A stretch of DNA of 64,000 nucleotides from assembly GCA_017525235.1 (NCBI GenBank), contig JAFXTC010000040.1:42302-106301 (forward strand), written 5' to 3'. This DNA is from Bacteroidaceae bacterium (lineage in GTDB: Bacteria > Bacteroidota > Bacteroidia > Bacteroidales > Bacteroidaceae). Below the pieces are notes generated by a model. It was not told the DNA's origin and searched no databases. It saw only the letters and a program-made list of their open reading frames with translations. A program made the translations under genes and the position numbers. This document shows, piece after piece, positions 1-62,340 of this stretch (position 1 is its first letter; each line of letters begins with the position of its first letter).

Positions 1-909
1 ATGGAAAACGTCTGTTTAATCTTCGTCTTGTCTAAAACACTATATGATGGGCGTTTTACCGGACTGGGAAACTCGCTCGAATGACAAGGCAACACCTCGC
101 AGGCTCCGTGAGTTCCAAAGGTTTCTGCTGTTTCGGGAGTTTCAAGTTCTACTGCTATCTGCTGAATCACCTTGGTAAAATCGTACCACGAACAAACACC
201 CTCGTTGGAAAAATTGAAAATTGAAAATTTCTTTCTTGTAATCTTCAATTATCCTCATGATTGCATTAGCCAAATCAAGCGCATAAGTGGGAGTTCCAAC
301 CTGGTCGAAGACAACCTTGAGCTGGGGCTTCGTGGCAGTGAGGTTGAGCATGGTCTTGCAGAAATTCTTGCCAAACTCGCTATAGAGCCACGCAGTACGT
401 ATGATAATGTACTGGCACCCTACTGCCTGAATCTTCTGTTCGCCACAAAGTTTTGTATAGCCATAAACGCCTGTGGGCGTTCCCTGCTGATTCTCGCAAC
501 AAGGCACATTATATGGTTCCTTACCGAAGACATAATCTGTGGAGATATGTATCAACAAGCCATTCACCTCCTTCATGGCAACAGCCAGATTCTCCGGAGC
601 CTTGGCGTTAAGTAACATTGCCAACTCCTGATTTGTCTCTGCTGCATCAACATTGGTGTAGGCAGCACAATTTATGATAACCTGGATATTATTCTGTGCC
701 ACCATAGCACGAATGGCAGAGAGGTCGGTAATGTCGAGTCGCTCTGTTACCGTGCATACCTCATCACCTGCCAGCTTTCGGAGCATAGCGATGGATTCAT
801 CGCTGGCATCGCATACGTCGGTAAAATAAAAATGATGGGCAGAGCCTTGGGCAACGATACGCATCTCGTTACCCAACTGCCCATTTGCACCTGTTACAAG
901 AATATTCAT
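1..909 (-). pseudogene. rmlD: dTDP-4-dehydrorhamnose reductase RmlD, frameshifted and cut by the window edge
   Basis: RmlD makes dTDP-L-rhamnose by NADPH-dependent reduction of dTDP-4-dehydro-rhamnose, the last step of the pathway. The N-terminal Rossmann motif TGANGQLG is at residues 6-13; STDYVF and the YGYTK (YxxxK) catalytic motif follow. The first frame reads through about residue 231 (KKEIFNF), then goes out of frame and stops at 142. From about 209 down to base 1 another minus-strand frame continues the family sequence (SNEGVCSWYDFTK, then RPSYSVLDKTKIKQTF) with no stop, so the true gene leaves the window. The break lies in a tandem heptamer, AAAATTG at 210-216 and again at 217-223. 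Removing one copy restores EIFNF-SNEG, matching the family pattern GIYHFSNEG. Deleting one base of the A run at 209-213 would also restore frame but leaves two extra residues. Last gene of the rml operon, 6 bases after rmlB. Confidence 0.85.
207..230. repeat. Heptamer tandem (AAAATTG, two copies plus a near copy) inside rmlD
   Basis: Two exact 7-base units at 210-216 and 217-223 are followed by the near copy AAAATTT (224-230). The extra unit sits exactly where rmlD loses frame. It belongs to the family of 7-base-period tracts found throughout the window. Confidence 0.8.
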
Positions 910-915
910 ACGCGC

Positions 916-2049
916 TTAACGTCCTTTGTACATATTTTCGTAATATGACTGATAGTCGCCACTTGTGACATTATCCAGCCACTCTTCGTTATCGAGATAC
1001 CACTTAACAGTCTTCTCTATACCCTCCTCGAACTGCAGGCTGGGTTCCCAACCCAATTCTTTCTGCAGCTTGGTGCTATCGATAGCATAGCGGGCATCAT
1101 GACCCAAACGGTCGGTTACGTAAGTGATAAGGTCGAGGTCGGCACCCTCAGGACGACCCAGCAAACGATCTACGGTTGCGATGACAGTCTTGATGATATC
1201 GATGTTCTTCCACTCGTTGAAGCCACCGATGTTATAGGTCTCGGCAATCGTTCCATTATGGAAAATGGTATCGATAGCACGGGCATGGTCGACAACATAC
1301 AGCCAGTCGCGCACATTCTCGCCCTTGCCATAAACAGGCAGAGGTTTACGATGGCGAATATTGTTGATGAAGAGAGGTATCAACTTCTCGGGGAACTGGT
1401 AAGGACCATAGTTGTTGCTGCAGTTCGTCACGATGGTGGGCATTCCGTAGGTATCGTGGAAAGCGCGCACGAAATGGTCGGAGCTAGCCTTGGAAGCAGA
1501 ATACGGAGAGTGAGGATTGTACTTCGTGGTTTCGTAGAAGAAATCCTTTCCGTATGCCAAGTGATGCTCGCCCGAAGAAGCCTTTGTTGTGAAAGGAGGC
1601 TCTATACCCTCGGGGTTGGTCATCTCGAGAGCTCCATATACCTCGTCGGTAGAGATGTGGTAGAATCGCTTGCCCTCATATTTATCAGGCAGCGACTCCC
1701 AGTAGAGCTTGGCAGCCTGCAGGAGGCTGAGTGTACCCATCACATTGGTACGGGCAAAGGTGAAGGGATCCTTGATGCTACGATCTACGTGCGACTCAGC
1801 TGCAAGATGGATGATACCATCTACCTTTTCATCCTGCATGAGCTGATAGAAAGCATCGAAGTCGCAGATGTCCATCTTGACAAACTTATAATTAGGCTTA
1901 TCCTCAATATCCTTGAGGTTAGCCAGGTTACCTGCATAGGTCAACTTATCAAGATTGATAATGTTGTACTCAGGATACTTGTTGACAAAAAGTCTCACAA
2001 CATGGGAGCCTATGAATCCGGCACCACCGGTAATAACAATATTTCTCAT
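916..2049 (-). CDS. rmlB: dTDP-glucose 4,6-dehydratase RmlB
   Basis: Second enzyme of dTDP-L-rhamnose synthesis: NAD+-dependent conversion of dTDP-glucose to dTDP-4-dehydro-6-deoxyglucose in the cytoplasm. The 377-residue length is usual for the Bacteroidetes form. Visible motifs are the Rossmann loop GGAGFIGSH (about residues 8-16), HLAAESHVDRS, the ISTDEVYG active-site segment and the SDR catalytic YSASK (about 183-187). NNYGPYQFPEK and the C-terminal LGWEPSLQFEEGI are typical of the family. It sits between rmlC and rmlD on the same strand; the stop lies 6 bases before the rmlD start, so the genes are surely cotranscribed. A 7-base-period tract lies just upstream at 2068-2098. Confidence 0.97.
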   Translation of the reverse strand: MRNIVITGGAGFIGSHVVRLFVNKYPEYNIINLDKLTYAGNLANLKDIEDKPNYKFVKMDICDFDAFYQLMQDEKVDGIIHLAAESHVDRSIKDPFTFARTNVMGTLSLLQAAKLYWESLPDKYEGKRFYHISTDEVYGALEMTNPEGIEPPFTTKASSGEHHLAYGKDFFYETTKYNPHSPYSASKASSDHFVRAFHDTYGMPTIVTNCSNNYGPYQFPEKLIPLFINNIRHRKPLPVYGKGENVRDWLYVVDHARAIDTIFHNGTIAETYNIGGFNEWKNIDIIKTVIATVDRLLGRPEGADLDLITYVTDRLGHDARYAIDSTKLQKELGWEPSLQFEEGIEKTVKWYLDNEEWLDNVTSGDYQSYYENMYKGR

Positions 2050-2067
2050 AACTGTAAATTTTAATTT

Positions 2068-2098
2068 CGGTTAGGGGTTAGCGGTTAGGGGTTAGCGA
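2068..2098. repeat. Heptamer tract between rmlC and rmlB
   Basis: On the minus strand the tract alternates CGCTAAC and CCCTAAC for four units. It supplies the last codons of rmlC (SLTPNR and stop). A closely related tract, starting with the same CTCGCTAACC, is at 39732-39757 on the plus strand. Confidence 0.8.
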
Positions 2099-2650
2099 GT
2101 AGTGAAACGGAGTTTCGAAGTCTTTGAACAACACATGTTTGGTATCTTTCTCGCTCAGGATAGCCTTATCGACTGGTATACGCCAATCAATACCAAGAGA
2201 ATCATCCAGAATAGAGATTCCGTCGTCAGCCTGTGGTGCATAGAAGTTATCGCACTTATATTGGAACACAGCCTTTTCTGTAAGCACAGAGAAACCATGG
2301 GCAAAACCATGTGGAATAAAGAACTGAAGATGATTCTCCTCGGAGAGTTCCACAGCAACGTGCTGCCCGTATGTGGGTGAGCCCTTACGAATATCCACAG
2401 CTACATCCAAAACAGTTCCTTTTACGCAGCGCACCAATTTACTTTGCGTATAGGGAGGACGCTGAAAATGAAGTCCGCGCATTACACCGTAGGAAGACAT
2501 GGACTCATTGTCCTGTACAAAATCTATCTTTCCGACCTTCTGCTCGAATTCGCGCAAAGAGTATGACTCAAAGAAATATCCACGCGCATCCTCGAACACT
2601 CGTGGTTTAATTATCAGAAGACCCTCTATTTCCGTCTTTATTACTTCCAT
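2078..2650 (-). CDS. rmlC: dTDP-4-dehydrorhamnose 3,5-epimerase RmlC
   Basis: Epimerises C3 and C5 of dTDP-4-dehydro-6-deoxyglucose. I chose the ATG at 2650 (MEVIKTEIEG) rather than the upstream ATG at 2671, which overlaps rmlA and adds residues not usual in the family. Family landmarks are VFEDARGYFFESY near the N-terminus, QDNESMSSYGVMRGLHFQ with the catalytic histidine (GLHFQ), the DVAVDIRKGSPTYG strand and HGFAHGFSVL. It begins 10 bases after the rmlA stop. The last six residues (SLTPNR) are encoded by the heptamer tract at 2068-2098, so the natural C-terminus, near ETPFHY, appears to have been rewritten by the repeat. Confidence 0.95.
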   Translation of the reverse strand: MEVIKTEIEGLLIIKPRVFEDARGYFFESYSLREFEQKVGKIDFVQDNESMSSYGVMRGLHFQRPPYTQSKLVRCVKGTVLDVAVDIRKGSPTYGQHVAVELSEENHLQFFIPHGFAHGFSVLTEKAVFQYKCDNFYAPQADDGISILDDSLGIDWRIPVDKAILSEKDTKHVLFKDFETPFHYSLTPNR

Positions 2651-2660
2651 AAACAATATA

Positions 2661-3569
2661 CTAAAAATCAATGTTAGGTAAACCTGTTTCCTTTACCTCG
2701 TCAATAACCCTTAACAAATACTGCCCATACTGATTCTTGATCATCGGCTGAGCCAACTGGCGCATACGCTCCTCAGAAATCCATCCATAACGATAGGCAA
2801 TACCTTCAAGACAAGCAACCTTAAGGCCTTGTCGTTTTTCGAGTACCTCAATATATGTAGATGCCTCGCTTAAAGAATCATGTGTTCCTGTATCTAACCA
2901 TGCGAATCCTCTTCCCAACGTAAGTACTTTGAGGTCGCCAGAAGCCAGGAACTCTTGATTAACAGTGGTTATCTCGTACTCACCCCGTGCTGAGGGCTGA
3001 ATGTGTGATGCAACATCAACCACACGATTAGGATAGAAGTACAGACCCACAACGGCATAATTACTCTTAGGCTTTGCAGGTTTTTCCTCAATGGACAAAC
3101 AGTTGCCTTGCATATCGAACTCTGCCACACCATAGCGCTCTGGGTCGCTTACCCAATAACCAAAGACCGTTGCTTTTTGTTCTTCCTCGGCAGTACGAAC
3201 AGCTTCTTTGAGCATTCCCGTAAACCCGGAACCATGGAAGATATTATCACCTAAAACCAAGCACACAGAATCGTCACCAATGAAATCCTTGCCAATGACA
3301 AAAGCCTGAGCAAGACCATCGGGCGAAGGTTGCTCTGCATACGAGAAACGTACTCCATAGTCGGAACCGTCTCCCAGAAGGCGCTTGAAGCCAGGAAGAT
3401 CCATGGGGGTAGATATAATAAGAATATCCCTAATGCCTGCCAACATAAGCACAGATATGGGATAATAAACCATGGGCTTATCATATATTGGCATCAACTG
3501 CTTACTGACTCCCTTTGTAATGGGATAAAGACGTGTTCCGGAACCTCCGGCTAAAACAATTCCTTTCAT
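2661..3569 (-). CDS. rmlA: Glucose-1-phosphate thymidylyltransferase RmlA
   Basis: First enzyme of the rhamnose branch: condenses dTTP and glucose 1-phosphate to dTDP-glucose. The 302 residues open with the nucleotide-binding signature [11 protein letters not shown] followed by [27 protein letters not shown] carries the metal-binding aspartate, and [21 protein letters not shown] and [15 protein letters not shown] are diagnostic of the short RmlA form. It is the first gene of rmlACBD on the minus strand. Only about 33 bases separate it from the lptD-like gene upstream, so a shared transcript is possible. Pathway product: the rhamnose donor for surface polysaccharide. Confidence 0.97.
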
Positions 3570-13288: not shown

Positions 13289-13437
13289 TTCTCGATTATA
13301 ACAAACAGGTACAATAAACAAGACAACAAGGAAGCATAAAAGCTTTAAAAATCATAATAAGATGCATTGTAGGACTTGTTCTGACCATCTACCTGACAGG
13401 ACTTTCCCTCTCCAAAATTCCAGCTGTTCAAAGCTGG

Positions 13438-38729: not shown

Positions 38730-39676
38730 TTCTGCTCCATCAGTTCCAGAATCCTGTTCACCTTTTCCTCCATAGGGAGCAAAGCATCTATCCAGTTTAT
38801 CTGTATACCCCTGCGCTCCATTCCTCTGAACCACGTCATCTGACGTTTGGCAAACTGATGAATGGCAATTTCCAGTTGTCGTACCATCTCGTTGTATGAC
38901 AGTTGCCCAATGCAATACAGCGTCAGGTACTTGTACTCCAAGCCATAATAAATAAGATCGTCAGGGGAAACCTTCTCCAACAGCTTCTGCACCTCCTGCA
39001 CCATGTTCTCTTCCTCAAGGCGTTTGTGCAGACGATCTGTTATTTTCTTCCTGCGAAGCTCCCTGTCGATGTTCACACCAATCGTAAGGCTTTTCACCTG
39101 GGGGAACTCGCGTTCCTGAATATTATTCTGTCTGTAATATTCCTGAATCTCTATCGCACGTATGGCACGCTTGGGTGTATCAACATCTGTGGTATTATGC
39201 AGCGTTTTGTAACCTTTCAGTATTTCTGTCAGTTGCTCCAGGCTGTAATCCGCCAATTGTTCCCTTAAAGTTGCGTTTTCAGGAACAGGAACCATCTTGT
39301 AACTCTTCAGTACCGACTCAATGTACAACCCTGTTCCTCCACACAGGATAGGCAACTTCCCCCTCTCTATAATATTATAATAGGTATACCAGAAATCCTG
39401 CTGGTATTGGAAGAGGTTATACTTCTCCCCTGCCTCTGCAATATCTATCAGATGATAAGGCACTTTTACAGTTGAGGGTTGAGAGTTAAGAGTTGAAAGT
39501 TGGGAAACCGTATAATCTGCAAGGTCCTTTCCCGTACCAATATCCATACCCTTGTACACCTGACGACTGTCTGCACTTATTATCTCAGCATCGCCTACCT
39601 TAGCTGCCAAATGTGCTGCCAAAGTTGTCTTACCCGATGCTGTAGGGCCCAATATGGTAATAATATCAGCTTGCAT
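38726..39676 (-). CDS. miaA: tRNA dimethylallyltransferase with a heptamer-encoded insertion
   Basis: Transfers a dimethylallyl group to A37 of tRNAs that read UNN codons. The P-loop is GPTASGKTTLAAH (residues 10-22), followed by ISADSRQVYKGMDIGTGK, VPYHLIDIAEAGEKYNLFQYQQDF and LCGGTGLYIES. Between DYTV and VPYH the protein carries SQLSTLNSQPSTVK, roughly ten residues longer than the short DG-type loop expected there. This stretch is encoded by a 7-base-period tract (39468-39503). The insertion is in frame and in a surface loop, so activity is probably kept. It converges with the Crp/Fnr gene. Confidence 0.95.
   Translation of the reverse strand: MQADIITILGPTASGKTTLAAHLAAKVGDAEIISADSRQVYKGMDIGTGKDLADYTVSQLSTLNSQPSTVKVPYHLIDIAEAGEKYNLFQYQQDFWYTYYNIIERGKLPILCGGTGLYIESVLKSYKMVPVPENATLREQLADYSLEQLTEILKGYKTLHNTTDVDTPKRAIRAIEIQEYYRQNNIQEREFPQVKSLTIGVNIDRELRRKKITDRLHKRLEEENMVQEVQKLLEKVSPDDLIYYGLEYKYLTLYCIGQLSYNEMVRQLEIAIHQFAKRQMTWFRGMERRGIQINWIDALLPMEEKVNRILELMEQN
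39468..39503. repeat. Heptamer tract inside miaA
   Basis: On the minus strand, five imperfect 7-base units of the pattern (C/T)AAC(T/C)(C/T)T, for example CAACTTT, TAACTCT and CAACCCT. It encodes Ser-Gln-Leu-Ser-Thr-type residues in the MiaA loop. Confidence 0.85.
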
Positions 39677-39731: not shown

Positions 39732-39757
39732 CTCGCTAACCACTAATCGCTAACCGA
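39732..39757. repeat. Heptamer tract upstream of miaA
   Basis: CGCTAAC, CACTAAT and CGCTAAC in tandem, flanked by CT and CG. Closely matches the minus strand of the tract at 2068-2098, but with fewer units. Confidence 0.75.
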
Positions 39758-39861: not shown

Positions 39862-39872
39862 GACACTCTGTA

Positions 39873-40379: not shown

Positions 40380-40444
40380 GTTTTAACATGAACCGTTCCC
40401 TGTCAACAATGAATCTCAGATGTGTACCTTCACCAAGCAACGTA

Positions 40445-40800: not shown

Positions 40801-40808
40801 TACCTTTG
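40801..40808 (+). promoter_or_regulatory. Candidate -7 element for the 40869 lipoprotein gene
   Basis: TACCTTTG fits TAnnTTTG, 61 bases before the start. No -33 TTTG is visible. Confidence 0.35.
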
Positions 40809-40868
40809 CAATATACTTTATGAGAAATAGCAATGGCAAATTAAAGACCCCGAGATACGATTATAAAC

Positions 40869-41804: not shown

Positions 41805-41884
41805 CAGAAGCAGAATCGCTATTTTCAGAATTCTCCGAATTTTGGATGAGATTTGGGTCTGATTTTGGGTAACGAAGAATATGA

Positions 41885-41928
41885 AAATCCGCGTAACTTA
41901 TTGAAAAAACAATTAGTTGCGCGGATTT
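41885..41928. terminator. Long hairpin after tRNA-Ser
   Basis: An inverted repeat with about 19-base arms (AAATCCGCG and CGCGGATTT at the ends, two mismatched pairs inside) around a six-base loop. It begins six bases after the tRNA 3' end on the minus strand, so it may end or process that transcript, although no long T run follows. Confidence 0.6.
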
Positions 41929-41933
41929 ATCAG

Positions 41934-42018
41934 CGGAGAGAGAGGGATTCGAACCCCCGGTGCCTCTCAGCACGCCGGTTTTCAAGACCGGTGTAATCGA
42001 CCACTCTACCATCTCTCC
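41934..42018 (-). tRNA. tRNA-Ser (anticodon UGA)
   Basis: Class II tRNA on the minus strand, 85 bases. The acceptor arms GGAGAGA (42018-42012) and TCTCTCC (41941-41935) pair, with G as discriminator. The anticodon arm is CCGGTCTTGAAAACCGG, reading TGA in the loop. A long variable arm (CGTGCTGAGAGGCACC) marks serine, and the T arm is GGGGGTTCGAATCCCTC. CCA is not encoded. Confidence 0.97.
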
Positions 42019-42106
42019 GAACTCTCTTATGAGAGGCTTTTGGTCTAAAAGCGCTGCAAAGGTAAGGACTTTAGGCGAGACTGCCAAACATCCTAAGGAC
42101 TTTTTT

Positions 42107-44281
42107 TTATTTCACAAGAATTTTCTTTCCATTAATTATATATATGCCCTTATTCAGTTGAGAGTTAGAAGTTGAGGGTTGGCTATTTAATATTCTTCTT
42201 CCGCTCAAGTCATATACCGCATTATTGTGAATTGTGGATTGTGAATTATGAACTGTAGCTATACCATCTATGACAGCATCAGACAAGAACTGGAACCAAT
42301 TTACGGAAAACAGTTTTACGTTAGAGGTGCCCGTAGCAACCATATATATATTATGTATGCCACTAACAGGGACGTTAAGCGTCTTGGTGAATGTATCCCA
42401 TATATTAGTGCTGGCACCTTCTTCATCACCTGCGAGTGTACAGAGCAACGTACCTTCCTCGTCATTAGGTGCGTCCAAGTAAACATTCAGCTTAGCCGTG
42501 ATACGTGAATAGCTGGCTCTGATTGTGACGTATTTAGCTGAGTCCGTACCAAAATCCACATTCTTATAACCCACATAGTTGGCATTCTTCATGCCAGAGG
42601 CCATACCCGTACCATCATCCGTATTACCCGCATCTGCGATATTGGCACTTTTAATAAAATTAAAATGCTCAGCCTGAATGGGCTCATAGGCATTATGCTG
42701 ATCCACAACACCCAAGTGAGCATTAAAGGCTGCAGAAAGACATGTACTGTTGCCAAAGGCCTCGAAGGTCTTCAACTCACCTCCCTCCTGATGCTTAAAA
42801 TCTTCTTCTGCCTTAGTAAGCCATGCCGAAGAAGTGATACCGCCCGAATTTCGGTTATTCCATGCATGATAGGCATTCTTGGCCATCCAGTCATAATATG
42901 TGGGTGCATTCATATCCTCGGCATACCTACGTATGTATCGCATCAGTATCCCTTTAAATCCGCATAGGTCGCCCCTTACCGTCTGACAGACTTTTATGAT
43001 GCCGTGACCGTCAGCCAGTTCCTTCACCGACCATTTGATAATAGCATCGGCATCTGTCTTATACATAGAATCCTTGTAGTAATTATAAAGCATAACAGCG
43101 GCCCCTAAACAAGTTCCCTGATTGTAGGTTGATGCCCAATAGTTATAATTCTTGGTACCCTGATCATAAGAGTCCCACACCTTACCCGTAGGCTTTCCGC
43201 CAGAGAATTCATAAAGTTGCTTGCGGTTAGCAAGATAGGTCTTCTTGGCCTTCTCGTAATACGACATATCGGCAGTAGCTATAGCCAGATAACAAGCACA
43301 GACGGAAGCAGGACCATTAATACATGCATTGGTTCCCTGACCAGAGTTATGTTTCCATTGCAGGAGGTCGTTACCATAGCAGTCAGCCCGTTGAAACATA
43401 CCATCAAAGTTTGTTTTAGCCGTATTCAGATACTTAGTGGTTCCTGTTAGCAGATAGGCGCGAACACAGGCAATACACATCCAGGCAATATCGTCGTTAT
43501 ACTCGTTGTAACCAGACACACCACTCTGATACCATGTACTTTTGTTACGTGAAATAAAATTGGTATAGAGATTCTCAAACATGGTGGCATAATCCTGATT
43601 ACCCGTCGTCTCGTATGCATCAAGGATGGTCTCGAACATCTCGGCATCGCCCCACCAGCCACCATTGTCTATACTGTATCCTGTACTCTGCCTCTTATAA
43701 TGACGGCTCTTGAACTTCGCCATCATATTATCACGCATAGATTTAGAGAATCCGTAAGGCTCTGCATCTTGATCTACTTCTACACTCCATTCTATGAGTT
43801 CGGGATCTGCCGTTGATGCCGTAAGCAGTTTTACTCCGGTGCCGTCTGCAATTTCGGCATCAGAAGACAAGGCTAATCTGCGGGCTGTACCAATGAAAAT
43901 GTTGTACTTGTTGTCAGAACCCTCAACAGGAACAATTTCCCATGCTCCTCGGCTCATATTCCTTGTAATCTGCCCCACTACAGCCTTGTTGGTAGCAGCC
44001 GATATGCCGCCAAGATAGAGCTGCGAATAGACATTCTGCAGGAAAAAAGTCCCTCTGCCAGTTTCAACAAGCATCCAACGCTGAGAATGGGTCTTAGTTT
44101 CTGTCCAGAGAACAGCATTTTTGGAAGCATCGAGCGAGGAGTTTTCCACCATCAGAGAACGGCCTCCACGAATAAGACGGACCACCTGTCCTGCCTCGAA
44201 GGCATACGTCATCGAACTTATAAAGAACGATAACACTAAAACCATTAGGTTTTTTGAAAAATCAGACATAGTTAATATCAC
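42107..44281 (-). CDS. Secreted GH76-type alpha-1,6-mannanase with lectin and CBM modules
   Basis: A 724-residue secreted glycosidase acting on alpha-mannan, probably of yeast walls or glycoproteins. After the signal peptide a ricin-like lectin module covers about residues 28-170 (VVRLIRGGRSLMVENSS, QRWMLVETG, YSQLYLGGI). The (alpha/alpha)6 GH76 domain follows, about 185-530, with the catalytic aspartate pair in YNEYNDDIAWMCIACVRAY, QWKHNSGQGTNACINGP and CGFKGILMRYI. A CBM6-like module starts at YEPIQAEHFNF. The tail is a T9SS-like AVYDLSGRRIL and LNKGIYIINGKK, interrupted by two linkers encoded by 7-base-period tracts. It is the last gene of the metA-U32-membrane-protein-GH76 set, 7 bases after its upstream gene. 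Confidence 0.92.
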   Translation of the reverse strand: MILTMSDFSKNLMVLVLSFFISSMTYAFEAGQVVRLIRGGRSLMVENSSLDASKNAVLWTETKTHSQRWMLVETGRGTFFLQNVYSQLYLGGISAATNKAVVGQITRNMSRGAWEIVPVEGSDNKYNIFIGTARRLALSSDAEIADGTGVKLLTASTADPELIEWSVEVDQDAEPYGFSKSMRDNMMAKFKSRHYKRQSTGYSIDNGGWWGDAEMFETILDAYETTGNQDYATMFENLYTNFISRNKSTWYQSGVSGYNEYNDDIAWMCIACVRAYLLTGTTKYLNTAKTNFDGMFQRADCYGNDLLQWKHNSGQGTNACINGPASVCACYLAIATADMSYYEKAKKTYLANRKQLYEFSGGKPTGKVWDSYDQGTKNYNYWASTYNQGTCLGAAVMLYNYYKDSMYKTDADAIIKWSVKELADGHGIIKVCQTVRGDLCGFKGILMRYIRRYAEDMNAPTYYDWMAKNAYHAWNNRNSGGITSSAWLTKAEEDFKHQEGGELKTFEAFGNSTCLSAAFNAHLGVVDQHNAYEPIQAEHFNFIKSANIADAGNTDDGTGMASGMKNANYVGYKNVDFGTDSAKYVTIRASYSRITAKLNVYLDAPNDEEGTLLCTLAGDEEGASTNIWDTFTKTLNVPVSGIHNIYMVATGTSNVKLFSVNWFQFLSDAVIDGIATVHNSQSTIHNNAVYDLSGRRILNSQPSTSNSQLNKGIYIINGKKILVK
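42156..42184. repeat. Heptamer tract inside the GH76 sorting tail (distal)
   Basis: On the minus strand four units such as CAACCCT, CAACTTC and TAACTCT. It encodes NSQPSTSNSQLN within the C-terminal tail of the GH76 protein. Confidence 0.8.
42223..42256. repeat. Heptamer tract inside the GH76 tail linker (proximal)
   Basis: On the minus strand four to five units of the ATTCACA / ATCCACA type. It encodes TVHNSQSTIHNN just before the sorting-tail motif AVYDLSG. Confidence 0.8.
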
Positions 44282-47019: not shown

Positions 47020-47923
47020 CTATATTATAAGGTGTCTCTTGATATACATAATAATTGAGCCAGTTTTGGAACATAAGGTTGCCGTGGGCACGCCACGTTA
47101 CAAGGGGTCCTTGCTCCATATCATCGTCCTTATAATAATTATAAGGTTTCTGAATAGGAAGCCCCTTTCCAAGGTCGCGCTTGTACTCTGTATCCAACGT
47201 ATTGGGCGAATACTCTGAGTGACCCGTGATAAATATCTCCCTACCCTCGCGTGCCATCACCATGGATACACCACTCATGGGACTTTCTGCTATAAGCGTT
47301 AGCTCTGGAACCTTAAGTATGTCCTCTCTTCGAATCTCTGTATGTCTGCTGTGAGGCATGTAAAATACATCATCGAACCCGCGGAAGATAGGCAATGTCT
47401 TATCTGATGGATACTGAGGGAAGATGCCAAACATCTTCTGCGGCAACGGATACTTAGGCACTCCATAGTGATAGTATAGACCTGCCTGAGCAGCCCAACA
47501 GATATACATGGTGCTGGTAACATGCGTTCGGGCCCAAGAAAAAATCTCACTTATCTCATCCCAATAGGTAACCTCATGATAATCAAGATGCTCAACGGGA
47601 GCACCTGTGATAATCATACCATCGAACTTCTCATTACGCATCAGCTCAAAGTCGCGATAGAATGCCCTCATGTGCTCAATAGGCGTATTCTTGCTGGTGT
47701 GCGCCTTTACCTTCATAAACTGAACTTCCAACTGAAGAGGGCTGTTAGAAAGAATACGTATAAGGTCTGTCTCTGTAGTAATTTTCAGAGGCATGAGGTT
47801 CAGAATAACAATCCTTAATGGACGGATATCCTGCGTGTTAGCTCTGGAATCTGCCAGCACAAAGATGTTCTCGTTTTTCAGAAGGTCTATGGCCGGTAAT
47901 CTGTCTGGAAGTCTTAATGGCAT
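47006..47923 (-). CDS. metA: Homoserine O-acyltransferase MetA (probably acetyl-CoA-using)
   Basis: First committed enzyme of methionine synthesis. 305 residues, starting MPLRLPDRLPAID. The glutamine amidotransferase-like triad is Cys142 (YICWAAQAG), His235 and Glu237 (ITGHSEYS). The residue equivalent to position 111, which sets acyl specificity in studied MetA proteins, is Glu (GAPVEHLDYHEVTYW); Glu here goes with acetyl-CoA, Gly with succinyl-CoA. So 'homoserine O-acetyltransferase' is the better functional name although annotation pipelines say succinyl. It heads the set metA-U32-membrane protein-GH76. A heptamer tract lies just upstream. Confidence 0.95.
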   Translation of the reverse strand: MPLRLPDRLPAIDLLKNENIFVLADSRANTQDIRPLRIVILNLMPLKITTETDLIRILSNSPLQLEVQFMKVKAHTSKNTPIEHMRAFYRDFELMRNEKFDGMIITGAPVEHLDYHEVTYWDEISEIFSWARTHVTSTMYICWAAQAGLYYHYGVPKYPLPQKMFGIFPQYPSDKTLPIFRGFDDVFYMPHSRHTEIRREDILKVPELTLIAESPMSGVSMVMAREGREIFITGHSEYSPNTLDTEYKRDLGKGLPIQKPYNYYKDDDMEQGPLVTWRAHGNLMFQNWLNYYVYQETPYNIDDIH

Positions 47924-47938: not shown

Positions 47939-47966
47939 AATGAAGAATGAAGAGTGAAGAATTTTC
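47939..47966. repeat. Heptamer tract upstream of metA
   Basis: AATGAAG, AATGAAG and AGTGAAG, then AATTTTCAATTTA. It fills the gap between the M13 peptidase stop and the metA start. Confidence 0.75.
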
Positions 47967-50028: not shown

Positions 50029-50056
50029 TTTAACTTTCAACTATCAACTCTTGACG
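50029..50056. repeat. Heptamer tract between ABC-F and peptidase genes
   Basis: TAACTTT, CAACTAT and CAACTCT followed by TGACGAT. Next to it, a G-rich stretch (50069-50087) forms the last codons of the ABC-F gene. Confidence 0.7.
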
Positions 50057-50062: not shown

Positions 50063-52027
50063 TCACCCCTGGGGGAGTTGGAGGGGGCTCTCAACTTCCA
50101 AAGCCTCCATCGCTCTTTCCCATTCTTCTTCTGCGGCAGTAAGCTGTGCCTTCAACCGACCATGCTTCTCATACAAACTCATATCAGCACTACCTTCAGG
50201 TGTTGAGAGCCGAGCTTCCAGAATCTTCACGGCAGCCTCTAACTGCGACACATGCTCCTCAGCTTCCTGCACAGCCTTTTCCAACTTTTTCTTCAAGCGC
50301 GAAGCGGCTTTTTGTTGCTCGTATGAGAGAGCAGATTCCTTCTGAGAGGCTACTGACTCTGCTTTTTCAGACAGACTCTTTTGCTGCAAGAGTTGTGATG
50401 TATTTAATTCGGTGAGCTCCTCTATCTGCCTGGTTTTCAGGAAATCATAGATTCCGCCGAGATGTTCCTTCACCTGACCGCCAGCAAACTCATAAACTTT
50501 CTCTACTAAGCCGTCAAGGAACTCACGGTCATGGCTCACCAAAATTACCGTTCCTTCAAAATCTCGAATGGCATCCTTTAACACATCTTTGCTACGCATA
50601 TCCAAATGGTTGGTAGGCTCATCCAAAATCAGACAGTTCACAGGCTCCAGCAATAGCTTTATCATAGCCAGACGTGTACGCTCTCCGCCAGAGAGGAACT
50701 TGACCTTCTTTTCGCTAGCCTCGCCCCCAAACATAAATGCTCCCAGGATATCGCGAATCTTCAGACGCATATCACCCTTTGCCACGCGATCTATGGTATC
50801 AAAGACGGTAATCTCACCATCCAACAATTGTGCCTGATTCTGGGCAAAATAACCAATCTGAACATTGTGACCTATGGTCAACTTGCCATCGAAGGGAATC
50901 TGTTCCATGATGCACTTTACCAATGTGGTCTTACCCTCACCGTTACGACCGACAAAAGCAACTTTCTCGCCGCGCTTGATGGTCAGGTTCACATGGCTAA
51001 ACACCACATGTGCATCATAGCTTTTTGCAGTATCCTCACAAATAATGGGATAGTCACCACTACGAAGTGAACATTTGAACTTCAGACGTAAAGCCGAATT
51101 GTCTACCTCGTCAACCTCTATAGGCACAATCTTCTCTAGTTGCTTAATGCGACTCTGCACCTGGATGGCTTTTGTAGCCTGATAACGGAAACGGTCTATG
51201 AAAGCCTTAATGTCTTCAATCTCTTTCTGCTGGTTCTCATAGGCACGAAGTTGCTGTTCACGTCTTTCAGCACGCAACACTACGTACTCGTCGTACTTTA
51301 CCTTATAATCATATATCTTTCCACAACTGATTTCCAGTGTACGGCTCGTGACATTGTTAATAAAAGCACGATCGTGGCTCACCAACACAACGGCACCGGC
51401 ACGTGTGCTCAAGAACTGCTCCAACCATTGAATACTCTCAATGTCAAGATGATTGGTGGGCTCGTCAAGCAAGAGGACATCAGGGTGCTGCAATAACAAT
51501 TTAGCCAACTCAATTCGCATACGCCAACCTCCAGAGAACTCGCTGGTAGGACGGTCGAAATCTTCTCTTCTGAAGCCCAATCCTTGCAGGGTACGTTCCA
51601 TTTCTGCATGATAATTCATGCCTCCCATCATTTGAAAATGTTCATTCAAATGAGTAAAACGCTCCACTAACTGCATATATTCCTCGCTTTCATAGTCGGT
51701 ACGTTCTGCCATCTGATTATTCAGACGGACAATTTCGTCCTGAATCTCATGAATATGTGCAAAAGCTTTCTCAGTCTCCTCGCGCACCGAACACTCGTCT
51801 GAAAGTATCATTACCTGAGGCAAATAGGCTATGCTGGTTTCGCGCGGAACAGATACCACACCACCTGTAGGTTCCTGCAATCCTGCTATTATCTTAAGCA
51901 TTGTGCTTTTACCGGCTCCATTCTTTCCAACCAAAGCAATACGGTCCCTATCATTAATCACGTAACTGACATTACTGAACAACGGCCGGGCACTGAATTC
52001 AACGCGCAAATTATCTATAGAAATCAT
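50063..52027 (-). CDS. ABC-F family ATPase
   Basis: A 654-residue soluble protein with two ABC ATPase domains and no membrane part, so a ribosome-linked ABC-F protein (EttA/Uup-like). NBD1 has GKNGAGKSTMLK, the signature SGGWRMRIELAKLLL and Walker B LLLDEPTNHLD; NBD2 has GRNGEGKTTLVK, SGGERTRLAMIKLLL and LILDEPTNHLDM. The linker and a C-terminal coiled coil (AAEEEWERAMEALEV) follow. It probably acts on stalled ribosomes; resistance use is not shown. The C-terminal LQLPQG is encoded by a G-rich repeat-like tail at the tract. A -7-like TACCTTTG lies at 52050-52057. Confidence 0.95.
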   Translation of the reverse strand: MISIDNLRVEFSARPLFSNVSYVINDRDRIALVGKNGAGKSTMLKIIAGLQEPTGGVVSVPRETSIAYLPQVMILSDECSVREETEKAFAHIHEIQDEIVRLNNQMAERTDYESEEYMQLVERFTHLNEHFQMMGGMNYHAEMERTLQGLGFRREDFDRPTSEFSGGWRMRIELAKLLLQHPDVLLLDEPTNHLDIESIQWLEQFLSTRAGAVVLVSHDRAFINNVTSRTLEISCGKIYDYKVKYDEYVVLRAERREQQLRAYENQQKEIEDIKAFIDRFRYQATKAIQVQSRIKQLEKIVPIEVDEVDNSALRLKFKCSLRSGDYPIICEDTAKSYDAHVVFSHVNLTIKRGEKVAFVGRNGEGKTTLVKCIMEQIPFDGKLTIGHNVQIGYFAQNQAQLLDGEITVFDTIDRVAKGDMRLKIRDILGAFMFGGEASEKKVKFLSGGERTRLAMIKLLLEPVNCLILDEPTNHLDMRSKDVLKDAIRDFEGTVILVSHDREFLDGLVEKVYEFAGGQVKEHLGGIYDFLKTRQIEELTELNTSQLLQQKSLSEKAESVASQKESALSYEQQKAASRLKKKLEKAVQEAEEHVSQLEAAVKILEARLSTPEGSADMSLYEKHGRLKAQLTAAEEEWERAMEALEVESPLQLPQG

Positions 52028-52161: not shown

Positions 52162-52197
52162 TGGCTAAGGGCTAAGGTCTAAAGCCTAAAGTCTAAC
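52162..52197. repeat. Heptamer tract upstream of the LRR lipoprotein gene
   Basis: Five 7-base units: GGCTAAG twice, then GTCTAAA, GCCTAAA and GTCTAAC. It sits 20 bases upstream of the start codon, within the likely leader. Confidence 0.85.
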
Positions 52198-54960: not shown

Positions 54961-54963
54961 GAT

Positions 54964-57900
54964 TTATCTTATCACAGCTTTCTTCCCGTTCACAATGTAA
55001 ACGCCATTATGTCGTGAAGATTTACCATTGAGCATTTTGCGACCTGAAAGGTCGTAAAAAGTTTGATTATTGAGCATTGGATATTGAACATTGCTGTTGA
55101 TTCCGTCAGTATCAATTTTCTTGCGGTAATAGAGTCGGGCATTGTCAAAACAGGTCCAGTCGTAGGTTGTTGCCAATGTTTTCCGCATTCCCACACGTAG
55201 TTGTCCACCATCAGTCTTTAGCTCAATCTCCACACTGTTGTCCTGGTAAGCTCCCTTTATGTTGAAAGCCAGATGGGCCTGTGTCACATTATCAGGGTAG
55301 GTGTAATCTGGCGAATAGGTGAAGGGGGCAGAAGTGTCAAACAGAGACATAAAGGGAGTCGTAATCGTTTCCTCGTCGGCCTGGATGTATAGCTGCGCAT
55401 TTAGTCCCTCTGTGCCGTTGTTATGTGCCACCCATGCATTCTGAATGCTTCCATAGCGGTAGAATCCGTTGATGGTGAAGCGGTAGTCGCCTGCAGGCAT
55501 ATTGCTGAGGGTTTGGTAAGCATCGAAATTCTGATTGTAGAATTCGGCCACAGTCCCCGGAGCGGCAAGGAAAGATGTACCCGACCATCCGCTCCTTCCC
55601 TCGCCAAAGGTCGGGTTGCGAAGCTGGTCGGTGATGTCTGTCCAGTCCTCATCCGACGGTTCGGGTATCCACTCGGCGGTAACATCTGTGACGGGAATAC
55701 GTAGGATGTTGAGCGAGTGAGCAGGACATTGGATATTGAGCATTGAGGGCTCTCCCTCGTTCATCGTCCTTAAAACAGGTTTTACCTTATTTAATTCTGT
55801 CATAGAGTTCTCATCCAATCCGCTGGTGCTGCTGAGCACTTCTTGCTCTACTTGTCCCGTCCACTGGAAATCCTTGAAACGAAGTGTGGCCTCCGTTGCC
55901 TGTCCCATGTTCACGAGTTTCACGATAAGTGTATCCTCAGCTTCGTTCAGGGCAGCACAGGTATAGAGCTTACGGGCATCAGGCAGGGTGATGTGGTGGC
56001 AAAGCGAATTGTCGAAGTAGCAATAAACCTCATTGCCAGTCTTGACGATACGGATGCAATATGTTTTTCCTTGGGTAATCGAGCCGGAAGCCTTGGTCAG
56101 TGTGCGCTTGGAGCCCCCCACACATTGTTCGATGGCATGCTGCGAATTGTTCCATCCGCCTATGTTCCACCAAATAAAGTTGTCCGGGTCGTCATAGTTG
56201 AAAGCAATGAGGAAGCCCTCGTTACCCGAGTTTTTGGTAGCATCCATTTCTAGGGTGTAATCCTCGCTACACGGTATGCGGCACACATTGCACTCACCCT
56301 GCATCGAGGTACTTGTCTGGTTAAGCATGCCGCCGTTGATGTTCCATGTGCCTCCTGTAGCGCTCCAGTTTTGCTGGTATTCCTGATCGTCGCTAAAGTC
56401 GGTGGAATAGAGCGTCTGTCCGTTTCCGTCTGTCACCTTGATGTTATCGTAAGACACAGATGTTGACCACGAGCTAAGGGCAATACCAGTGTTATTCGAA
56501 TAGTAAGAGTTGTTTTGCTCCTCCCATGTGATGTTCTGATAGCCCACATTGGAGCTCATCATCTGCTGCACCCAGTAGGATGGTGTGCCGAAGGCAGATG
56601 AGGCATTGAAGCGTATCATGTCGGGCATCCAGGGTGAAGGATGGCTCTCATGACAGAATATGGGAGCATAGGAGGCCATAAAGCATACATCTGAGTTTCG
56701 CTCCATACCTGCCATATAGATAGCCTCAGCCAGGGCAGCGTATAGGTTGCCTACGGACCCAAAGTCGCTCGTAACGGCATATTCGCCAGCATAGACAAGG
56801 TAGCTGTTACGGTTGAAATGGTCATATTTGTTATATTGCTGACTGAACCACGAGGTACTGCGGTAGTAGTGCTCGTCCACAGCATCCACAGGACTGCCGT
56901 TTCGCCACGAAGGGTCATCTGTACCCCATGCTTCCACGTTGCCGATGAGTATCATCTCGGGGTACTTGGCCTTGATGGCATTGTAGAACTGCTGATATCG
57001 CTCCACGTAGTGGTCGCTCTGGTCGTTGTTGTTATTGAACGAGAAGTTGTAGTTCTCGTTGCCAATCTCCAGAAGTCGCAGGCCGAAAGGCTCCGGATGT
57101 CCGTTGGCTGCTCGCATGGCTCCGTAGGTGGTGTTCACGTCTCCGTTGCAATACTCAATCAGGTCAAGAGTTTCCTGAATAAAGTCCCCCAGGTTCTGGT
57201 AGTCCTGCATCCATCCGTGTCCCAGTCCTATGTTGCTGACAAAAAGCGGTTCGGCACCCAAGTCTTCTGTCAGTTGCAGCAACTCATGCAATCCCAGTCC
57301 GTCGCTCACGCGATAGCCCCAGTTCACGTTCCAGTGCCCCGGACGCTCCTCAATGGGACCAATGGTCTTCTTCCACTCAAAACGGTTAGTCTGACCGTCT
57401 TTCCACGTACCCTCGATGTAACAGCCACCGGGGAAACGCACAAAGGTGGGATGAAGCATAGCCAGCATCTCGGCCAGATCACGCCTACAGCCGTTGGGAC
57501 GGTCTTTATAAGTGGGAGGCATCAGAGAAACTACATCCAGATAGATGACCATAGGTTCCAGTCCTTTTAGGGCCAGCCATCCTTTGGTCGCAGAAGAGGT
57601 GGCCGTCAGTTGAGTGGTATATTTCTGCCACTCCCCGGTCAGTTCAACGTCGAACTCTGTGCTGCCAAGATTGTGCTTATCTTCATCCTGCAGTTCGGCA
57701 CACATACGACCTGTGAACGAATCATATGTCTTTGCCCAGAATGTCAGGGTATAGGTTTCGCCCTCCTGGATATTCATGCCCCAGAAACCATCGTTGCGAA
57801 CACCCGCATCAGCCCCTTTTATTGTCACTTTCAGGGCGTGTCCCTGTGCTTTGTTTAGCAGATTAGTGCTTACAATAGTGGAGCTCACATTGCCAAGTCC

Positions 57901-58131
57901 CCACCATCCGTCGGGGTTGGAGGCGTTATCCTCGAAAGAGCGGTTGCGAACCAACTCAGCATAGAGGCCGCCATCGCCGCCATGGTTGATCTCTTCATAG
58001 AAGATGCCATACTGTATCGGACTAAGTAACGGGCCGCGTTGTGAGGTTGAGAACTCTAAAGAAACTTGTGCCCTGCCGGTTAGAGCACATAGAATACAAA
58101 ACAGGCTAAAAAGATTGTTTTTGGCTTGCAT
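54964..58131 (-). CDS. Secreted GH51-type alpha-L-arabinofuranosidase, multi-modular
   Basis: A 1055-residue secreted enzyme removing arabinose from arabinoxylan or arabinan. After the signal peptide (to about GRAQ) come PIQYGIFYEEINHGGDGGLYAEL, a CBM4-like module and the catalytic barrel with FVRFPGGCYIEG, the acid/base LLEIGNENYNF and the nucleophile in YLVYAGEYAV. A laminin-G-like insertion occupies about residues 555-720 (YSTDFSDDQEYQQNWSATGG, then FLIAFNYDD), followed by the GH51 end, a galactose-binding-like module and the tail FYDLSGRKML and GVYIVNGKK. Two heptamer tracts fall inside, at the tail linker (55066-55095) and within the GH51 C-region (55725-55747). Confidence 0.93.
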   Translation of the reverse strand: MQAKNNLFSLFCILCALTGRAQVSLEFSTSQRGPLLSPIQYGIFYEEINHGGDGGLYAELVRNRSFEDNASNPDGWWGLGNVSSTIVSTNLLNKAQGHALKVTIKGADAGVRNDGFWGMNIQEGETYTLTFWAKTYDSFTGRMCAELQDEDKHNLGSTEFDVELTGEWQKYTTQLTATSSATKGWLALKGLEPMVIYLDVVSLMPPTYKDRPNGCRRDLAEMLAMLHPTFVRFPGGCYIEGTWKDGQTNRFEWKKTIGPIEERPGHWNVNWGYRVSDGLGLHELLQLTEDLGAEPLFVSNIGLGHGWMQDYQNLGDFIQETLDLIEYCNGDVNTTYGAMRAANGHPEPFGLRLLEIGNENYNFSFNNNNDQSDHYVERYQQFYNAIKAKYPEMILIGNVEAWGTDDPSWRNGSPVDAVDEHYYRSTSWFSQQYNKYDHFNRNSYLVYAGEYAVTSDFGSVGNLYAALAEAIYMAGMERNSDVCFMASYAPIFCHESHPSPWMPDMIRFNASSAFGTPSYWVQQMMSSNVGYQNITWEEQNNSYYSNNTGIALSSWSTSVSYDNIKVTDGNGQTLYSTDFSDDQEYQQNWSATGGTWNINGGMLNQTSTSMQGECNVCRIPCSEDYTLEMDATKNSGNEGFLIAFNYDDPDNFIWWNIGGWNNSQHAIEQCVGGSKRTLTKASGSITQGKTYCIRIVKTGNEVYCYFDNSLCHHITLPDARKLYTCAALNEAEDTLIVKLVNMGQATEATLRFKDFQWTGQVEQEVLSSTSGLDENSMTELNKVKPVLRTMNEGEPSMLNIQCPAHSLNILRIPVTDVTAEWIPEPSDEDWTDITDQLRNPTFGEGRSGWSGTSFLAAPGTVAEFYNQNFDAYQTLSNMPAGDYRFTINGFYRYGSIQNAWVAHNNGTEGLNAQLYIQADEETITTPFMSLFDTSAPFTYSPDYTYPDNVTQAHLAFNIKGAYQDNSVEIELKTDGGQLRVGMRKTLATTYDWTCFDNARLYYRKKIDTDGINSNVQYPMLNNQTFYDLSGRKMLNGKSSRHNGVYIVNGKKAVIR
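55066..55095. repeat. Heptamer tract in the GH51 tail linker
   Basis: On the minus strand CAATGTT, CAATATC, CAATGCT and CAATAAT. It encodes NSNVQYPMLNNQ just before the sorting motif. Confidence 0.8.
55725..55747. repeat. Heptamer tract inside the GH51 C-region
   Basis: On the minus strand CAATGCT, CAATATC and CAATGTC, the same units as at 55066-55095. It encodes PSMLNIQCP. Confidence 0.75.
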
Positions 58132-58164
58132 AAAATTTTATGGTATTAGGATTTATAAAGAGTC

Positions 58165-58196
58165 TCTAAACTTTAAACTCTCAACTTTAAACTTTA
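58165..58196. repeat. Heptamer tract upstream of GH51
   Basis: TAAACTT, TAAACTC, TCAACTT and TAAACTT, directly before the DUF1573 stop and 36 bases upstream of the GH51 start. Confidence 0.85.
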
Positions 58197-58631
58197 TTCC
58201 ATATCCCCCTCTATTATCAGACGAGTTACCTCTGAAATGGCATTGGAACGAATGGTAATTGTCTTTTGGAAATGACCAGGGAATTTATCAGTACCATTAT
58301 AAGTGACGTCTATGACACCCTTATCACCGGGTTTAATGGGTTCCTTTGTAAACGTGGGAACCGTACATCCGCAACTGGCAAAAGCCTGATGAATAACCAA
58401 AGGAGCAGTTCCAGTATTTGTGAATTTAAAGCTGCACTTAACAATGGGATCATTCTTGCTGAACTTGCCAAAGTTATGTCGGAGGGTGTCAAATTTAATC
58501 TCGGCATAGTTCTCTGCCTTAGTAACACCTGTTACCTTCACCTCACTGGTGGTGACTTTCTGTTTTTGTGTTTGAGCCTGAGCCACTGAAACTGTCAGAA
58601 GGCAAAAGGCCACTATCAAGAGTTTCTTCAT
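58194..58631 (-). CDS. Exported DUF1573 protein
   Basis: A 145-residue exported protein of the ASPM/MSP-like DUF1573 family. The signal peptide is MKKLLIVAFCLLTVSVAQAQ. The motif FDTLRHNFGKFSKNDPIVKCSFKFTNTGTAPLVIHQAFASCGCTVPTF and KPGDKGVIDVTYN is classic for the family, with the paired Cys-Gly-Cys. Its role is unknown; the domain is thought to bind in the periplasm. A -7-like TATATTTG is at 58656-58663 on the minus strand. It is divergent from ruvC. Confidence 0.9.
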   Translation of the reverse strand: MKKLLIVAFCLLTVSVAQAQTQKQKVTTSEVKVTGVTKAENYAEIKFDTLRHNFGKFSKNDPIVKCSFKFTNTGTAPLVIHQAFASCGCTVPTFTKEPIKPGDKGVIDVTYNGTDKFPGHFQKTITIRSNAISEVTRLIIEGDME

Positions 58632-60871: not shown

Positions 60872-61872
60872 TAATGACTGCTTTGGCTTACAATTAGTTT
60901 GTCACCAGACAGGTCAACCTCAAAGAGGTGGGGAATGCGGACTGTTCTGCCTCTGGAGTCGTTGGCGTGGCTATGTATTGACATCATCCACTGACCGTCA
61001 AACCGCTTGAAGAGCATCGAGTGCCCAAAGTTCGGAGGAGTAATGGGATTGGGCTCCTGAATCCAGGGACCATCCAGTGTTCCGCTTTCTGAGTAGGCCA
61101 CTCCCTGAGTATAATCGCCAAACACCCACGAAGTCCAGAGCATGCCCAGTCGGCCCGTTCCGGTGCGGAAGAGCCACGGGCCATCGGTAACTTTGTTCCA
61201 TGTTATGTTGCCGTTGCTGTCTTTTTCGCGGCTCCAAGGTGAATCGCTAGCACGGAAGAGAATCTTTGGTTCGCCGATAGTTCCGCTAAAATCGGACTTC
61301 AGTTCAACCTTCTCGATGGTTCCGTTCCAGTTCTGTAGCCATTCGCCACAGAAAACCATATAGGGCTTACCGTCCGTGTCGCGCCAGAATGTACCATCAA
61401 GCGTAGGTCGGTCGGCTGGCAGATAGGTGGCATCCCCAAATGTCCGGTACGGGCCCATAGGATTATCAGCTCGCAGCACCTGGCAGGCTCTGCGCTCAAT
61501 GACATTACCACGGACGGTATCAATTTTCACCTCGCGGTTAGTGAAAGTGGCGAAGTAATAGTACCATCCGTCCCCCGTCTGATGGAGTTCGGCAGCCCAA
61601 ATCATCGGATACGGTCCCATCCAAGAATCCTTTTCAAACTCGGTCACCCGGTATGGTCCTTCCCATAGCTTCAGGTCAGGACTGCGCCACATCATCCCGC
61701 CTGTGCCAGTCATGTAATACATTTTGGTCTTTTGGTCAGCCAGTATGGCAGGGTCGCTCAGGCGTATGGAGTCCAATGGAACATCATGTCGAACCTCAAA
61801 CCCTCTTGGCTGTGCCTGTGCTTTGAATATACACAGAAGGCAAGAGAAGATAGTTGCAATTACAGTCTTCAT
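60865..61872 (-). CDS. Secreted GH43-type glycosidase
   Basis: A roughly 335-residue secreted enzyme with a five-bladed propeller fold. I start at MKTVIATIFSCLL (signal peptide to about KAQA); the longer ORF is not supported. RLSDPAILADQKTKMYYMTGTGG contains the catalytic-base Asp. GPYPMIWAAELHQTGDGWYYYFATF, DRPTLDGTFWRDTDGKPYMVFCGEW and VTDGPWLFRTGTGRLGMLWTSW are conserved; the last has TDGP where many GH43 enzymes have TEGP, as in a subset of the family. It probably cleaves arabinose or xylose side chains. With GH98 and GH51 in the same window it fits an arabinoxylan-degrading set. Confidence 0.88.
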   Translation of the reverse strand: MKTVIATIFSCLLCIFKAQAQPRGFEVRHDVPLDSIRLSDPAILADQKTKMYYMTGTGGMMWRSPDLKLWEGPYRVTEFEKDSWMGPYPMIWAAELHQTGDGWYYYFATFTNREVKIDTVRGNVIERRACQVLRADNPMGPYRTFGDATYLPADRPTLDGTFWRDTDGKPYMVFCGEWLQNWNGTIEKVELKSDFSGTIGEPKILFRASDSPWSREKDSNGNITWNKVTDGPWLFRTGTGRLGMLWTSWVFGDYTQGVAYSESGTLDGPWIQEPNPITPPNFGHSMLFKRFDGQWMMSIHSHANDSRGRTVRIPHLFEVDLSGDKLIVSQSSHYQ

Positions 61873-61987
61873 AATCATATTTTCCTTATTCGAAATATTC
61901 AATCTTCAACTCGTCACTCACATTCCAACAACTTGATAGCATCCTTCGAGCGATGTCTCCTATTATAGCTCCTAACATACGGTTAAA

Positions 61988-62197
61988 TTAATCCATCATG
62001 AGGACTTTCACAACGTGATCATGGAAGTCATCATCTAAGACAGACATTTGGTGATTGCATTTGGGGCAGTTGAATGGTGTTTCTTCCTGCAGTTCTTTGG
62101 GTATGGGCTTTGAGAAGTCCCAACTCATAAGAACCCCCTTGGTAATATCAAATTCTTCTCCGCACTTAGGACATTTAATTATATATAGATGTGCCAT
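61988..62197 (-). CDS. Small double zinc-ribbon protein
   Basis: A 69-residue protein. Two CPKC knuckles (IIKCPKCGEEFDI and FNCPKCNHQM) bracket a polar middle, so one zinc is likely held by the four cysteines. The C-terminus has HDHVVKVLMMD. Function unknown; such small ribbons may bind nucleic acid or proteins. It is followed on the plus strand by an unusually long heptamer tract. Confidence 0.7.
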   Translation of the reverse strand: MAHLYIIKCPKCGEEFDITKGVLMSWDFSKPIPKELQEETPFNCPKCNHQMSVLDDDFHDHVVKVLMMD

Positions 62198-62249
62198 AAT
62201 TGTGTTATTTATATTAATTCAACTATTCTTTAATTATATTGTCATAATT

Positions 62250-62340
62250 AACCATTAATCATGAACCATTAATCATGAACCATTAATCATGAACCATTAA
62301 TCATGAACCATTAATCCTTAACCGTGAACCACAAATCACT
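62250..62340. repeat. Longest heptamer tract: about 13 units
   Basis: AACCATT and AATCATG alternate four times, then decay to AATCCTT, AACCGTG, AACCACA and AATCACT. The alternation gives a perfect 14-base period on top of the 7-base period. It overlaps only the stop codon of the EVE-like gene. Confidence 0.9.

Follow-up and report, generated by a model that had tools for sequence, protein, structure and literature searches.

Tandem repeats with a 7-base unit have been described in several bacteria. In cyanobacteria, short tandemly repeated repetitive (STRR) sequences (Mazel et al. 1990, Vioque 1997) usually have a 7-bp unit, lie between genes and can form hairpins (PMC2670836), and the title of Vioque 1997 places STRR sequences inside the RNase P RNA gene (PMC2858038). 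The P6b stem-loop of the Nostoc trnL intron consists of degenerate heptanucleotide units, TDNGATT and NNTGAGT. Its length changes by whole repeats, including 14-nt insertions, its arms pair into a hairpin, and the unit class has shifted repeatedly (PMC3488679, PMC4476775). TAACTGA direct repeats (MacGregor 2015) are heptamers, many of them intergenic, with a lineage-patchy distribution that includes five Bacteroidetes; in one cyanobacterial strain pair the differences are mostly 7-nt steps (PMC4679880). Multi-copy GGGNATC-type tandem heptamers occur within and between genes of Xanthomonas and Nostoc (PMC4692102), and 49 heptanucleotide elements are reported from Geobacter metallireducens (PMC2700814). 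These reports, from cyanobacteria, Xanthomonas, Geobacter and Beggiatoaceae, are piecemeal, and the available text suggests mechanisms and tests none. Here we describe degenerate period-7 tracts in a 64,000-nucleotide stretch (hereafter the window) of a Bacteroidaceae genome (GCA_017525235.1, contig JAFXTC010000040.1, positions 42,302 to 106,301) and in related genomes.

The tracts resemble the STRR sequences, as far as these are described in the available text, in having 7-bp tandem units above chance, in being dispersed and intergenic, and, at some sites, in being capable of forming hairpins; whole-unit length change was also found (one net 21-bp case). They differ in their phylum and in that many degenerate unit families occur together here, some of them inside protein genes. 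The Nostoc P6b repeats are the closest match in behaviour, although they occupy one locus under RNA-structure constraint, whereas the tracts described here are genome-wide. The TAACTGA study deals with one exact unit, whereas our units vary and differ between species. The Xanthomonas/Nostoc and Geobacter heptamers are G-rich or of fixed consensus, whereas the units here are degenerate and AT-rich. A first-pass annotation of the window had held that no named element behaves in this way; that statement could not be upheld, since STRR sequences and the degenerate Nostoc trnL intron heptamers behave alike. No account of degenerate, genome-specific heptamer arrays within Bacteroidales protein genes was found in the available text of the open literature, which leaves most subscription papers outside. 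We consider that the tracts are probably STRR-like degenerate arrays, which gain and lose whole units and, as we infer, seed array pieces into new sites. We regard them as a real and widespread phenomenon, of a kind already known, in a Bacteroidales setting that is new and informative.

Tracts were scored as segments of base identity at lag 7 (+1 for a match, -1.5 for a mismatch). Nine tracts with a score of at least 10 were found in the window, while 40 local Markov shuffles gave a mean of 0.15 and a maximum of 1. Among periods 4 to 24, period 7 was the strongest, followed by 14 (6 tracts) and 12 (4 tracts). The period-7 tracts in the window are therefore real, and each has its own variants, as the first-pass annotation had noticed. 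Of its thirteen tracts, nine (210, 2068, 39468, 42223, 47939, 50029, 52162, 58165 and 62250) score 10 to 24.5; three (39732, 55066 and 55725) score 6.5-7, which is the level of chance, since shuffles yield about 5 such segments per window; and within the tract at 42156 no lag-7 segment reaches a score of 5. Tandem Repeats Finder gave period-7 rows at 210, 2069, 39470, 42224, 47939, 52163 and 58167. The proposed (C/T)AA(C/T) content holds for most tracts: the YAAY/RTTR core reaches at least 0.75 per unit in 10 of the 13, and it is rare or absent in those at 47939, 52162 and 58165. The tracts are as follows.

210..229, no strand: AAAATTG, 2.9 perfect copies; inside the open reading frame (ORF) 142-909(-); score 13.
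2068..2098, minus strand: CCTAACC/GCTAACC, also a perfect 14-mer; overlaps the 3' end of a dTDP-sugar epimerase ORF, 2078-2671(-).
39468..39503, minus strand: CAACTTT/CAACTCT/TAACTCT/CAACCCT; in frame inside an IPPT/MiaA-type gene, 38726-39676(-).
39732..39757, plus strand: weak CTAACCR; score 6.5, chance level alone.
42156..42184, minus strand: listed tract with no segment of score 5 or more.
42223..42256, minus strand: TCACAAT; lies past the last Pfam domain of a GH76/CBM6 ORF, 42107-44281(-), in its C-terminal tail.
47939..47966, minus strand: CTTCATT; intergenic, between the genes for peptidase M13, 47970-50015(-), and homoserine O-succinyltransferase, 47006-47923(-).
50029..50056, minus strand: AGTTGAW; takes up the greater part of the 47 bp that separate the ABC-F-type gene 50063-52027(-) from the M13 peptidase gene.
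52162..52197, plus strand: GGCTAAG/GTCTAAA; 21 bp ahead of a predicted ORF start at 52217.
55066..55095, minus strand: weak tract close to the C-terminal end of ORF 54964-58131(-), an arabinofuranosidase; score 6.5.
55725..55747, minus strand: weak CAATNNN; ORF 54964-58131(-), region of its alpha-L-AF C-terminal domain; score 7.
58164..58196, plus strand: TAAACTT/TCAACTT; between 54964-58131(-) and the DUF1573 gene 58194-58631(-).
62247..62340, plus strand: the longest tract; 14-mer AACCATTAATCATG in 4.8 perfect copies, then decayed heptamers.

The lag-7 signal that the first-pass annotation had proposed to compare with shuffled sequence was in excess in local segments but not in the window as a whole, in which the autocorrelation (0.2555) was not raised and lags 6 and 9 were higher. 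The latter is expected from codon periodicity, and the lack of a global excess from the fact that the nine strong tracts make up 303 bases only. Global autocorrelation was therefore rejected as a signature of the tracts. The further view that the period is strict and that units are never homogenised was overstated. Tandem Repeats Finder showed perfect 14-mers at 62250-62316 (4.8 copies) and 2068-2097 (2.1 copies), and homogenisation thus does occur.

For one protein of the source genome, the best match with a name came from a 'Bacteroidaceae bacterium' metagenome-assembled genome (76% identity), and Bacteroidales supplied most of the better matches, which places the source genome in this order. 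Beyond the window, tract densities were counted at a score of at least 12 in stretches not chosen for tracts. The source genome contained 109 tracts/Mb (256 kb), and the richest congener, G018, 181 tracts/Mb; genomes of other families reached 155 (G058) and 80 tracts/Mb (G060). No tract was found in the sampled DNA of congener G004 (200 kb), of G037 (60 kb) or of G044 (100 kb), nor in three shuffles of each sampled genome. Around 80 named loci (1.31 Mb, N runs included), period 7 was the commonest of eight periods, with 52 tracts against 5-21. The pattern YAAC(NNNYAAC)x3, for which overlapping matches rather than separate tracts were counted, gave 98 matches in the source genome and at least one match in 44 of 61 genomes, 37 of the 61 being the source genome and its congeners. 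A Paludibacteraceae metagenome-assembled genome, G093 (locus L061), had 243 overlapping matches in 2.4 Mb, among the higher counts. The reversed control pattern, that is, CAAY arrays, matched equally often (112 versus 98 in the source genome), because CAAY-unit arrays exist too. The shared feature is the 7-base period and not one motif, and YAAC is not unique.

The unit sequences are partly genome-specific. Among the matches listed, TAACCGC, TAACCAA and CAACTCT are common in the source genome, CAACGGA in G032, CAACTRT and TAACTNT in G016, TAACTTT/TAACTAT in the Prevotellaceae metagenome-assembled genome G088, and TAACCCR in G093; one 25-mer array stands at 15 separate listed places in G088. 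We compared the commonest unit between sites, dropping pairs less than 3 kb apart in one locus and using no stretch picked for its tracts. It was identical in 27 of 603 site pairs within genomes and in 13 of 1840 between genomes. None of 1000 label permutations reached this difference (1 of 1000 without G012). Dispersed copies of one unit within one genome were seen, several unrelated unit families lie side by side in the source genome, and some units, such as CAACTCT, were found in several genomes. On contig C60, the 23-mer GAATAATTAATGGTTATTGGTTA has five exact copies within about 11 kb (L093:6022-6214, 13390-13479 and 17167-17324); elsewhere in the genome only two inexact copies exist, one of them on the same contig. 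This clustering suggests local spread.

Arrays inside conserved genes were compared with orthologues. The tract at 39468-39503 is absent from all 19 congener orthologues of the IPPT/MiaA-type gene, most of which have a short loop of the type VDGxxIPYHL. The loop here reads VSQLSTLNSQPSTVKVPYHL, in frame and 30 bp longer than the short form, and the DNA of the 19 orthologous loops contains no unit resembling the CAACTCT-family array. About 12 kb before the window on the same contig, a TamB-type gene (L093:6327-10937) contains a composite array, in which GGTTANN and AACGATAACG arrays are joined. At the protein level this array is absent from 13 orthologues, which have ordinary sequence, and it shares an exact 18-mer with an intergenic array at a distance of 10 kb. 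At the two weak arabinofuranosidase tracts five relatives differ in sequence, which proves nothing. Arrays in conserved genes show that heptamer tracts can rewrite protein loops.

Two gene gaps were also compared, with tract presence judged by eye. Between the M13 peptidase and homoserine succinyltransferase genes, heptamer arrays of differing units were found in 6 of 10 genomes with a short gap (the source genome, G001, G016, G018, G019 and G029). The other four have no array; one further genome, with a 3-kb gap, was left out. In the ABC-F/M13 gap, only the source genome and G029 of 14 genomes have arrays.

The close congeners G012 and G024 were aligned over 188 kb, in pieces 86.6-96.3% identical. 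Seven sites have a tract with a score of at least 10 in at least one of the two genomes. Three of them do not differ, and a fourth is a weak case of low complexity. One, in an ECF sigma factor gene, shows an in-frame net difference of 21 bp, or three unit lengths; another, in a FecR-type gene, has three substitutions within a 30-bp tract. The seventh lies in a gene for a carbon-nitrogen hydrolase; ordinary coding sequence, KPDGSVDCYDKHHLF, stands there in G012, and a tract, KPQEKGQCSMFNLQWYDKHHLF, 21 bp longer, in G024. Since PDG is presumably the usual motif at this position, gain of the tract in G024 appears likelier than its loss in G012. The differences in presence and unit number between close relatives that the first-pass annotation had named as supporting results were thus seen, one case each among the seven sites. 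In G024, in-frame heptamer tracts occur in three consecutive genes (ECF sigma factor, FecR-type and outer-membrane barrel; L225:3864-8190), and the sigma factor gene has two tracts facing each other between regions 2 and 4.

These observations can be arranged as follows. Each genome would carry its own set of unit families, in which whole units may be gained or lost through replication slippage or recombination between units, and imperfection would arise from point mutation and shuffling of variant units. A new array would be seeded when a ready-made array piece replaces or joins a short local stretch of DNA; the likeliest route is a template switch, in the course of replication or break repair, to an array that already exists. 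Slippage, template switching and the direction of change are steps that we infer from the sequences compared. A purely local origin, in which slippage extends a seed that arose by chance at each site, mutation follows and nothing moves, would explain the whole-unit difference between G012 and G024, the 14-base higher-order repeats, and the transition excess, which is as in ordinary mutation. We nevertheless regard it as unlikely. No array-like seed is present in the IPPT/MiaA-type loop DNA of 19 congeners or in the carbon-nitrogen hydrolase DNA of G012, so that ready-made array sequence appears to have come in. The TamB orthologues, compared at the protein level only, have no array, and units are shared across sites more within than between genomes. 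Unit gain and loss together with seeding into new sites is the best-supported history, and a dedicated writer is possible but unsupported.

Several points weigh against this history. The source assembly is an incomplete draft (2.6 Mb, 69 contigs, 72.7% complete), and an exact donor of the IPPT/MiaA-type insert was not found in it; the closest two sites carry 3 mismatches in 32, and a search with the reversed control pattern likewise produced 3 matches. Three of the 19 IPPT orthologues have other, non-heptamer insertions in the same loop, which therefore accepts insertions generally. Whole-unit length change and presence/absence between close relatives rest on one case each. The congeners that are tract-free in their sampled DNA are not accounted for. 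In long arrays, unit similarity showed no clear fall with distance: of 19, it was higher at lag 14 than at lag 42 in 10 and the reverse in 6. Decay of similarity was tried as an arbiter between independent writing and local duplication; it appeared at a first look, the test on longer arrays was weak, and no conclusion was drawn. This and the source genome's counts of polarity, tract pairs, unit differences, unit families and loops include 12 of its stretches chosen for holding tracts.

The first-pass annotation had proposed that the tracts are written with errors, possibly by a linked reverse transcriptase. Dedicated writing, in which such an enzyme or another polymerase works from a template RNA, or lengthens 3' ends by G-strand heptamers, and makes errors in doing so, is in our judgement very unlikely. 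It would fit the partly genome-specific units and the long arrays in which similarity falls little with distance, whereas the several unrelated unit families within one genome speak against it. The reverse transcriptase domain RVT_1 (PF00078) had no match in the source genome (73% complete). It matched in 19 of 61 genomes of the genus. Among 37 pattern-counted genomes, 12 had a match, including the richest, G018, and the tract-free G004 and G023; a match was present in 6 of the 19 genomes rich in tracts and in 5 of the 8 poor in them (p=0.2). With no match in the source genome and no significant link with tract number, reverse transcriptase was rejected as the generator. Retroelements like the diversity-generating retroelements make adenine-specific changes. 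No such bias was found in the source-genome tracts, where differences between neighbouring units were CT 100, AG 99, AT 88, GT 75, AC 31 and CG 10, with a transition/transversion ratio of 0.98 against 0.44 expected from composition. Loss of mismatch repair was also rejected, since MutS1 was above the cut-off in 54 of 61 genomes, the source genome included. Only 6 of the genus's 61 genomes had an SbcD match (TIGR00619) above the cut-off. Its loss does not separate rich from poor genomes: tract-free G004 and G023 have weak matches only, and tract-rich G015 has SbcD. Writing with errors, though compatible with the data, is thus not required, given that MutS is present and that the higher-order repeats of 14 bases speak for units having been duplicated in pairs.

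Strand polarity bears on the same question. In neighbouring tract pairs (up to 300 bp apart, counted without loci L081-L092), the order G-rich then C-rich strand was found 27 times and the reverse 8 times (p=0.002). At intergenic edges, the G-rich strand lies on top at the left and the C-rich strand at the right (31:11 versus 14:36, p=2e-5). Both biases would suit dedicated writing. The polarity is, however, confounded with gene ends. Most edge tracts are no more than 25 bp from a predicted gene end, the trend is weak when only the 12 tracts of divergent gene pairs are considered, and many G-strand units carry stop codons, from which the polarity may partly result. The gene boundaries used here, like the ORF start near the 52162 tract, come from a codon-usage gene caller. 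We also considered a telomerase-like end healing, in which a dedicated activity of these Bacteroidales, lacking any canonical reverse transcriptase, extends the 3' ends of broken chromosomes by G-strand heptamers specific to the genome. It is highly improbable; if it were true, healed breaks would keep a G-strand array at the left and a C-strand array at the right, sometimes inside genes.

Some of the arrays can form hairpins. In 15 of 64 neighbouring tract pairs, more 8-mers were shared inverted than direct, and some facing arms can form stable hairpins. RNA folding gave z values of -13.6 at L008, -6.2 in G019, and -6.3 and -3.8 in G088. Hairpin arms of the P6b type are predicted at some sites of relatives, but not at the window tracts at 2068 and 50029, the two tested, which fold no better than shuffles (z 0.37 and 0.33) and for which RNA hairpins were rejected. 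At L008 both arms carry a variant unit, one in mirror image of the other. In G088 some arrays appear to be the arms of a dispersed hairpin, whose loop GGCTATCCAG was found at 8 of the 17 sites that had been selected by an exact C-arm; this loop is a 10-mer, for which about 7 chance occurrences are expected in the 3.6 Mb analysed. A dispersed hairpin element with heptamer-array arms, similar to miniature inverted-repeat transposable elements or repetitive extragenic palindromes, of which single tracts would be decayed halves, could account for this loop, the inverted pairs and the mirrored variant. As an explanation of the tracts in general it is quite unlikely. Facing tracts of the source genome are often unrelated in unit and have no common loop by eye, and the two window tracts do not fold. 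Hairpins of this dispersed type, with arms of heptamers and a loop GGCTATCCAG that is conserved in part, lie at the G088 loci L254-L271 and L008; in L008, three hairpins have AATGAAG arms and loops that look alike on one strand or the other. A role of the G088 hairpins as gene-end elements was rejected, since a stop codon lies near the arm start in 3 of 17 only; an Rfam search of 18 G088 sites gave 16 weak matches and none at the gathering score.

One genus offers tract-rich species, species tract-free in their sampled DNA, a differing close pair and in-frame arrays, and the origin and spread of the arrays are therefore directly testable.

The Rfam scan of the window found one tRNA only, and the ORF 62874-63614(-) had no Pfam match. 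Beyond this ORF lies a 66-base tandem repeat of 2.6 copies (63704-63876). A search of a plasmid collection returned 29 plasmid records with short partial matches to 39400-43400. Finally, a 22-base tandem repeat, TCTGTCAACGCTTTGACAATGT, of 2.9 copies at 39779-39841 adjoins the weak tract at 39732.

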